Positions 23,939 through 25,475 of a DNA stretch of 64,000 bases are shown piece after piece. The notes beneath the pieces were generated by a model, which saw nothing but the letters and a program-made list of their open reading frames with translations, was not told the DNA's origin and did not search any database. Position 1 is the first letter of the stretch. Each line of letters opens with the position of its first letter. Source of the DNA: Paenibacillus curdlanolyticus YK9 (GTDB lineage: Bacteria > Bacillota > Bacilli > Paenibacillales > Paenibacillaceae); assembly GCF_000179615.1 (NCBI RefSeq), contig NZ_AEDD01000001.1, positions 434,001 to 498,000 on the forward strand. The letters are read 5' to 3'. The translations under genes were made by a program, and so were the position numbers.

Positions 23939-24148
23939 ATGAATGAATCAGGTAATGTAAGAAGCAATATTCGAATCGGATCGACGGTAGATATCGTATT
24001 GAAAAAGGACCAACGGACCGGCGCGTTAACGCAGGGGGTTGTTCAACAAATATTGACCAATTCGCCTAACCATCCGCATGGCATCAAGGTTCGGCTGCAG
24101 GACGGCCAGGTGGGGCGCGTGAAACAGATCCACTCTAACGGGAGTTAG
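23939..24148 (+). CDS. ywbE: YwbE family protein
   Basis: A 69-aa protein nearly fully made of the YwbE/DUF2196 domain: NIRIGSTVDIVLKKDQRTG, then SPNHPHGIKVRL and DGQVGRVKQI. It has a small beta-barrel character and may bind nucleic acid, but no function is established. ATG 23939 follows AGGAGAAGGA; in-frame codons upstream lack a site. Confidence 0.9.
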   Translation: MNESGNVRSNIRIGSTVDIVLKKDQRTGALTQGVVQQILTNSPNHPHGIKVRLQDGQVGRVKQIHSNGS

Positions 24149-24210: not shown

Positions 24211-24241
24211 CAGCTGTGAACGATGAAGGGAGGTGAACCTG

Positions 24242-24595
24242 TTGTTTGAATTAAACGATCTTATTCCGTATTTGTTCTCAATTAGCGTGTTGTGTTCGTT
24301 CGCTTATGTTTACTTCTCTTGGACGGCTAATTCGCCGATGCATTATTATGAGAGCGAGCCGTCGCTGTGGCTTGTAGAAGCCCCGTTGGTGGGTACTGTT
24401 CGTGAATGGGCGGATATCAGGCATGGGCTTGTCAGGAAAGTGAAGCGGAAGGAAGCGCCTGATGAAGATGCTTCAGATTGTAACTCCTCGGTAGCGGGAC
24501 CATGTTCTACTAGACGAGGAGGGTTCAAATGGGAAATACGAAATCGGTCAGCAGCAGGTTCACGGCTTTACGCATCTATGGGTTTTTATTACTGA
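24242..24595 (+). CDS. Small membrane ORF upstream of yidC, candidate MifM-like arrest peptide
   Basis: Reading from TTG 24242 (eight bases after AAGGGAGG) gives up to 117 aa with one membrane helix at about residues 8-27. A short loop and an amphipathic stretch (42-59) lead to a basic segment RHGLVRKVKRK (60-70) and then EAPDEDASD (71-79). The frame runs on through the yidC start and stops 67 bases inside yidC. The layout recalls B. subtilis MifM: a membrane anchor, then basic and acidic arrest residues, then a hairpin masking the yidC2 ribosome binding site. A plain small membrane protein is the alternative. Sequence similarity to MifM is from memory, not from an alignment. Confidence 0.55.
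   Translation: MFELNDLIPYLFSISVLCSFAYVYFSWTANSPMHYYESEPSLWLVEAPLVGTVREWADIRHGLVRKVKRKEAPDEDASDCNSSVAGPCSTRRGGFKWEIRNRSAAGSRLYASMGFYY
24484..24523 (+). promoter_or_regulatory. Hairpin sequestering the yidC ribosome binding site
   Basis: CTCCTCG (24484-24490) is fully complementary to CGAGGAG (24515-24521), which is most of the yidC Shine-Dalgarno sequence (24516-24523); ATG is at 24529. The left arm begins six bases after the DEDASD codons of the upstream ORF, so a ribosome paused there would cover it and free the site. Confidence 0.6.
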
Positions 24596-25371
24596 TTGTC
24601 GCGTTAATGCTAGTAAGCGGTTGTAGTGCCAAAGGCACGATAGACAGCAGCACGCCTGGCACATTTAATCATTATATTGTCTATCCGTTCTCAGCGGTCA
24701 TCCAGCATGTGGCTACATGGTTTGACGGCAGCTATGGGTTATCGATTATTGTAATCACACTGCTCGTTAGGCTTATCCTTATGCCATTGATGATCCGGCA
24801 GCAAACCGGTCAGCTGGCTATGAGAGCCAAGATGAAGACATTGACGCCAGAATTGAATGCGGTCAAAGAAAAGTACAAGTCGAAGAAAGATGCGGAATCT
24901 CAACGGAAGCTGCAGCAAGAGACGATGCAGCTTTACCAGCAGCACGGCGTTAATCCTCTCGCAATTGGATGTCTGCCTTTGCTTATTCAGCTGCCGATTC
25001 TGACGGGGTTGTATTACGCGATTCGCATGACTCCTGAGCTGAAAACCCATGCTTTCCTATGGTTTAAGCTAGGCTCTGCGGATCCGATCATGCCGTTTAT
25101 TGCAGCGGGCGTGTACTTGATTCAATCGTTCGTTTCGCAACGATTATCGGGTTCGGATGCCAGCCAACAGAAGCAGATGGCCATGCTGATGTACTTATCG
25201 CCGATTATGATGGGGCTCTTTTCATTCACGGCGCCAGCAGCGCTGCCGTTGTATTGGGCGGTCGGAGGCGTGTTCATGATTGGACAATCGTGGCTGGCCT
25301 ATAGGCTGTACCATAGACGCACGGGAAAGCTGACGGAACAGTCGGCTGCAAGTCCAATTAGCGCTGAATAA
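24529..25371 (+). CDS. yidC: Membrane protein insertase YidC/OxaA family, lipoprotein type
   Basis: Inserts and folds membrane proteins with or without SecYEG. A 280-aa precursor with a lipoprotein signal ending LVSGC (Cys32), then the YidC core of five membrane helices. The groove arginine is in LLVRLILMPL, followed by a basic cytoplasmic hairpin (about 100-135) and PLLIQLPILTGLY. Bacilli usually have two copies, SpoIIIJ next to rnpA and YqjG/YidC2. The isolated position and the upstream regulatory ORF argue for the YidC2-type copy, an inference. Confidence 0.92.
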   Translation: MGNTKSVSSRFTALRIYGFLLLIVALMLVSGCSAKGTIDSSTPGTFNHYIVYPFSAVIQHVATWFDGSYGLSIIVITLLVRLILMPLMIRQQTGQLAMRAKMKTLTPELNAVKEKYKSKKDAESQRKLQQETMQLYQQHGVNPLAIGCLPLLIQLPILTGLYYAIRMTPELKTHAFLWFKLGSADPIMPFIAAGVYLIQSFVSQRLSGSDASQQKQMAMLMYLSPIMMGLFSFTAPAALPLYWAVGGVFMIGQSWLAYRLYHRRTGKLTEQSAASPISAE

Positions 25372-25420: not shown

Positions 25421-25460
25421 ATAAATAAAGAAAGCCATTGAGTGAATGCACTCAATGGCT
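25421..25460 (-). terminator. Terminator of rpsD
   Basis: A perfect 12-bp stem (25433-25444 with 25449-25460) reads into TTCTTTATTTAT on the minus strand. Confidence 0.8.
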
Positions 25461-25475
25461 CTCTTAGTGATGCTA

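Follow-up and report, generated by a model that had tools for sequence, protein, structure and literature searches.

Results

A small membrane ORF overlaps the start of yidC2

Does the small membrane ORF that overlaps the start of yidC2 in Paenibacillus curdlanolyticus YK9 encode an arrest peptide that controls this gene, in the manner of MifM of Bacillus subtilis? We addressed this question in a 64,000-nucleotide stretch of the genome (the window) and in relatives. The host genome carries two YidC genes. One, yidC1 (locus L001), lies in the canonical rpmH-rnpA-yidC-jag order (gene names assigned by eye from translations) and has no upstream ORF (uORF) of this kind. The other, yidC2, starts at ATG 24529. 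The closest named relative found is Paenibacillus sp. MMS18-CY102 (86% identity over YidC2). The features of the locus, all within the window, are as follows.

24227 to 24236, plus strand: ribosome-binding site of the uORF (GGGAGGTGA region), from sequence
24242 to 24595, plus strand: mifM-like uORF, TTG start, 117 aa, stop at 24593–24595; homologues at 90 of 90 yidC2 loci
24266 to 24325, plus strand: predicted N-terminal membrane helix of the uORF, residues ~9–28, from hydropathy; top N-terminal conservation in the alignment
24416 to 24481, plus strand: predicted arrest core IRHGLVRKVKRKEAPDEDASDC, residues 59–80, from column conservation (90 loci) and profile-profile alignment with Bacillus MifM
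24484 to 24490, plus strand: left arm of the hairpin, CTCCTCG, within the uORF; from covariation
24515 to 24521, plus strand: right arm of the hairpin, CGAGGAG, holding most of the yidC2 Shine-Dalgarno sequence; from covariation and folding
24529 to 25371, plus strand: yidC2, second YidC/Oxa1 insertase, 280 aa, lipoprotein-type N terminus (PF02096, E 1.2e-45)

The ribosome-binding site preceding TTG 24242 is strong, and the same GGAGGTGAAC, that is, [KR]EVN translated ahead of the MFEL start, recurs among the uORFs of relatives. A preliminary description of this DNA had reported a small ORF overlapping the yidC start; it is real, with RHGLVRKVKRK at residues 60–70 and EAPDEDASD at residues 71–79 when numbered from this TTG. 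The single N-terminal membrane helix described there is likewise backed by hydropathy and by a conserved N-terminal block. The end of the ORF had been placed wrongly at 24531: reading continues through the yidC2 ribosome-binding site and start, giving an overlap of 67 nt. Searches of Pfam and NCBIfam returned no family match for the uORF.

Directly upstream on the same strand is a YwbE-like small ORF (MNESGNVRSNIRIGSTVDIV..., 23939–24148), identified by eye only, which may lie on one transcript with the uORF and yidC2. Downstream, a strong terminator-like hairpin (AAGAGAGCCATTGAGTG...CACTCAATGGCTTTCTT, 25428–25465, found on the minus strand) separates yidC2 from the convergent rpsD.

The uORF accompanies yidC2 across the Paenibacillaceae

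With YidC2 as bait, 247 genomes of the family were searched, and 90 yidC2-type loci were read upstream. A profile built from five uORFs detected a homologue ahead of the yidC2-type gene at all 90 loci (E ≤0.001 for 89, 0.016 for L067) and gave no homologue at the yidC1 loci examined. Among the listed family genomes of a class-wide sample, 28 of 28 that carry two YidC genes have the uORF, and 0 of 10 single-YidC genomes do. The conservation check proposed in the preliminary description comes out in its favor: the ORF is found family-wide, its basic, Ala-Pro, acidic core is kept, and 0 of the 90 homologues are frameshifted ahead of that core.

Purifying selection on the peptide is strong. For the window and L005, its nearest relative, comparison of the coding sequence as far as the core gives a dN of 0.09 and a dS of 1.42 (dN/dS ~0.06), and the median pN/pS across 74 comparable uORF pairs is 0.24. 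Conservation over the 90 loci concentrates in two blocks, the N-terminal membrane helix and the C-terminal core.

A basic-then-acidic core ends the conserved peptide

Column conservation over the 90 loci gives the core consensus [IL]xRx[VI][KR]R[KR]E[AS]P-D-[DEG]-[DE]...[DE]C. Columns were numbered from the Pro, which served as motif anchor and is therefore present in 90/90 by construction; in the window it is Pro73 (24458–24460). The basic half comprises Arg at P-8 (79/90), Lys or Arg at P-5 (87/90), Arg at P-4 (85/90), and Lys or Arg at P-3 (90/90), followed by Glu or Asp at P-2 (83/90) and Ala or Ser at P-1 (90/90). Beyond the Pro, Asp or Glu occupies P+1 and P+3, each in 88 of the 90 loci, and positions P+1 to P+6 hold a mean of 3.7 acidic residues and never fewer than 3; the corresponding window residues, 74–79, read DEDASD. 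The acidic cluster falls within residues ~70–100, as in MifM-type peptides. A Trp occurs in the core of 43 of the 90 family uORFs and is missing from that of the window.

Two further observations concern individual positions. Of the 90 family uORFs, 69 have a Cys at P+7 (Cys80 in the window, 24479–24481), where it would be the incoming residue if the stall matches the first MifM site. In other Bacilli the core Pro is substituted by Gly (L126), Val (L128), or Ala (L129 and L153); because these uORFs retain the acidic block and the Shine-Dalgarno hairpin, the Pro is not essential family-wide.

A covarying hairpin masks the yidC2 Shine-Dalgarno sequence

The preliminary description had noted complementary segments at the yidC2 ribosome-binding site, CTCCTCG at 24484–24490 and CGAGGAG at 24515–24521, and both lie where it placed them. 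Folded from the window alone (24454–24545), the helix is not convincing (z -0.90, with 35 of 200 shuffles equally stable); as these statistics are not significant, we did not rely on single-sequence folding and turned to the relatives. One locus, L058, has a doubtful automatic yidC start and was excluded from the distance and hairpin statistics, leaving 89. In 89 of 89 loci, the stretch between the core and the yidC2 start has a more stable fold than the mean obtained when its upstream part is dinucleotide-shuffled (mean z -2.9, Wilcoxon statistic 0), and the yidC2 Shine-Dalgarno sequence is paired at 0.84, against 0.70 in shuffles.

The distance from Pro to start is exactly 71 nt in 37 loci, which can therefore be aligned without gaps and without structural knowledge. 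Among the 35 non-redundant sequences of this set, one diagonal stands out, with nine consecutive pairs and 40 double-change cells; the runner-up diagonal has 5. A formal covariation count over 29 distinct sequences finds 86.8% of cells paired and 40 double changes, compared with 13.7 ± 2.9 in shuffles and 4–11 with slid partners, and RNAalifold picks the identical helix unprompted. A tree was computed from the uORF peptide with the arm excluded; on it, columns 32 and 59 show repeated, coordinated changes, five on each side, and they are paired in 35 of 35 sequences. The apparent Ser-Ser and Arg-Gly-Gly residues that follow the core are the two hairpin arms read as codons. These data are decisive: the hairpin that masks the Shine-Dalgarno sequence is conserved and covaries across relatives, with compensatory changes, in support of the preliminary description. 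A search of Rfam returned no family for it; the one weak match, to Acido-Lenti-1, lies on the opposite strand and below the gathering score.

The core, not the end of the peptide, is set relative to the yidC2 start

Over the 89 loci, the core Pro codon lies 71.6 ± 3.4 nt from the yidC2 start, despite very different uORF ends. In five Bacillus-group mifM loci (L130–L134), which a search with MifM of B. subtilis retrieved, the codon corresponding to Pro83 is 70–73 nt away from the yidC2 start and the Shine-Dalgarno sequence lies at +58 to +61, a match that bears out the MifM-like layout proposed earlier. In toeprints, the leading edge of a ribosome lies ~15 nt beyond the P-site codon. MifM stall sites have been mapped at Asp89–Ser92, i.e., P+6 to P+9 (PMC4423224). 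With a stall at these positions, window codons Asp79–Ser82 would occupy the P site and the leading edge would reach 24491 or further, immediately downstream of the left arm; a stall on the first acidic codons, Asp74–Asp76, would fall slightly short of it.

This geometry bears on whether arrest need be invoked at all. Under simple translational coupling, any ribosome translating the uORF would briefly melt the hairpin and allow yidC2 initiation, the peptide sequence being inert. The hairpin and the overlap would by themselves yield some coupling, and the uORF does run past the yidC2 start in 76 of 89 loci, stopping before it in 13. Coupling needs no conserved peptide, whereas this one is strongly selected: its RKE[AS]PDDD core is near-invariant and keeps an almost constant spacing to the start codon, and the tail after the core can end at any position between -36 and +185 nt from that start. 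We consider coupling without arrest very unlikely.

The same tail speaks against a reading in which the uORF product is a stable membrane protein of small size, a partner of YidC2, and the hairpin only tunes stoichiometry. Such a protein would fit the conservation of the membrane helix and the constant company of yidC2. Against it, protein-level conservation ceases after the core, leaving a C-terminal end variable in both sequence and length, and helix and core are joined by a linker of variable sequence and nearly constant length. Neither coupling nor a stable protein explains a conserved core at near-fixed distance followed by a free tail, and the stable partner seems to us even more improbable than coupling.

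An arrest peptide sensing some other input, such as Sec function, membrane potential, or a drug, is conceivable since arrest peptides monitor varied signals, and equally remote given that the target gene is yidC2, that the uORF tracks the second yidC copy, and that the spacer from helix to core, short and narrow in range, is of the kind seen in YidC monitors and not in Sec monitors according to a 2024 survey (PMC10987492). The spacer from membrane helix to Pro has a median of 47 residues (5–95% range 41–51); for MifM, the survey reports a median of 54 from helix to arrest site (PMC10987492).

The uORF is probably a diverged relative of MifM

Like MifM (YqzJ) of B. subtilis, which lies upstream of yidC2/yqjG, the Paenibacillaceae uORF precedes the secondary yidC and combines an N-terminal membrane helix, a short narrow spacer, and a basic-then-acidic C-terminal core. 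Both have a hairpin that masks the Shine-Dalgarno sequence and whose left arm immediately follows the acidic codons, and a core Pro codon ~71 nt from the yidC2 start. The host ribosomal protein L22, with FRPRAMGRAS, also has the Met of the MifM-permissive type; this Met permits MifM stalling, and other lineages generally carry a charged or polar residue there (PMC4423224).

The arrest sequences differ. The B. subtilis motif RIxxWIxxxxxMNxxxxDEED (PMC7897499) does not occur in the window (IRHGLVRKVKRKEAPDEDASD), where the family core replaces it. MifM depends on R69, I70, W73, I74, M80, N81, and DEED; the window peptide has no Trp and carries Lys70-Glu71 at the positions of Met80-Asn81. Lacking both Trp and Met-Asn, it is filed as a variant and not as MifM proper. 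Where family members do have a Trp, it sits one residue further from the Pro. The layout differs as well: most of the family uORFs run past the yidC2 start, and the mifM ORFs examined in Bacillus end before the yidC2 Shine-Dalgarno sequence.

A class-wide profile search reaches uORFs in other families of Bacilli, all directly upstream of yidC (L124–L129 and L148–L154). Three weak matches from the same search, L155–L157, are not upstream of yidC and were discarded. Some uORFs are intermediate in sequence, such as WISKVIRRKVCPNDDGEE of L152 beside WISKVIRMKRSSNDDED of the Bacillus locus L133. Aligned with Bacillus MifM by hhalign, the widened profile gives a short match correctly placed on the core (P 4.6e-4, with a probability of only 33%), and narrower profile sets give P 0.014 (not on the core) and 0.0022. 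In a set of 4641 frames, those of Bacillus MifM score E 0.013–0.4 and rank above the remaining frames of the same loci. MifM (3j9w) was missed at E<10 in a PDB search with the family profiles and was not recovered with the window peptide alone. The direct resemblance in sequence to B. subtilis MifM is weak, and common descent of the Paenibacillaceae uORF and Bacillus MifM is likely, short of proof. The preliminary description had envisaged a new or highly diverged case; the core is indeed diverged from MifM, and the case is not singular, being universal with yidC2 in the family and scattered in other Bacilli.

The Paenibacillaceae peptides may even have an arrest code of their own, unlike the one in B. 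subtilis MifM; we advance this proposal tentatively and would give it somewhat less than even weight. In such a code the basic RxxKRKE[AS]P would lie at the tunnel constriction (RMNSP in MifM) and the acidic PDDD near the catalytic center, with the P+7 Cys possibly incoming and the same permissive L22.

Discussion

The uORF upstream of yidC2 is very probably an insertion-sensing arrest peptide of the MifM type, a monitoring substrate of the YidC pathway that controls yidC2. Direct support comes from the selected peptide, the covarying hairpin masking the Shine-Dalgarno sequence, the near-fixed distance from core to start, and the exclusive tie to a second YidC. From these we infer arrest, release through insertion, and a response to YidC1 activity. 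The N-terminal helix of the uORF would act as a YidC-dependent insertion signal. When insertion is slow, the nascent chain would stall the ribosome near the acidic core; the stalled ribosome would cover or melt the left arm, the hairpin would be unable to close on the yidC2 Shine-Dalgarno sequence, and, with the hairpin kept open, YidC2 would be made. When insertion is fast, pulling would free the stall, the ribosome would pass the yidC2 start, and the hairpin would refold, leaving yidC2 expression low. We also suggest that a non-stalled ribosome, in translating across the yidC2 Shine-Dalgarno sequence and start codon, could add occlusion to the effect of the refolding hairpin.

A 2026 paper counts three arrest peptides upstream of yidC, namely MifM, ApcA, and CliM (PMC13183943). 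CliM (uC_KYxIW) of Clostridia resembles the Paenibacillaceae uORF in its position upstream of yidC, membrane helix, hairpin, and conserved spacing, and differs in its arrest motif, KYxIW, with nothing resembling the Paenibacillaceae core (PMC13183943). ApcA of actinobacteria is likewise an arrest peptide upstream of yidC2, and differs in having an RAPG motif and a single stall site (PMC7897499); the window contains no RAP[PG], though Ala-Pro occurs in its KEAPD. Nor is there an R-A-P-P motif of the RAPP/RQH type near the C terminus, the core being K-E-[AS]-P-D in nearly all loci. The 2024 survey reported 572 MifM-like sequences from 592 Firmicutes genomes, and its text does not mention Paenibacillus (PMC10987492). 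Our literature search found no paper treating Paenibacillus and MifM together, and arrest peptides and Paenibacillus co-occurred only in a motility review. The circuit itself would thus be a known one, with MifM-type uORFs already catalogued in Firmicutes; what appears new is the diverged arrest core and the overlapping ORF layout.

Detailed work on MifM stalling has concerned mainly a single species. The Paenibacillaceae offer many natural, deeply diverged variants whose arrest residues have changed under a constant hairpin and constant distances. With such a set one can test how an arrest sequence may drift and still function, which residues read the tunnel, and whether sensing of YidC in the MifM manner is ancestral in Bacilli with two YidC genes. 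If the arrest code is indeed distinct, it would be a second solution to the same regulatory circuit inside one evolving lineage.
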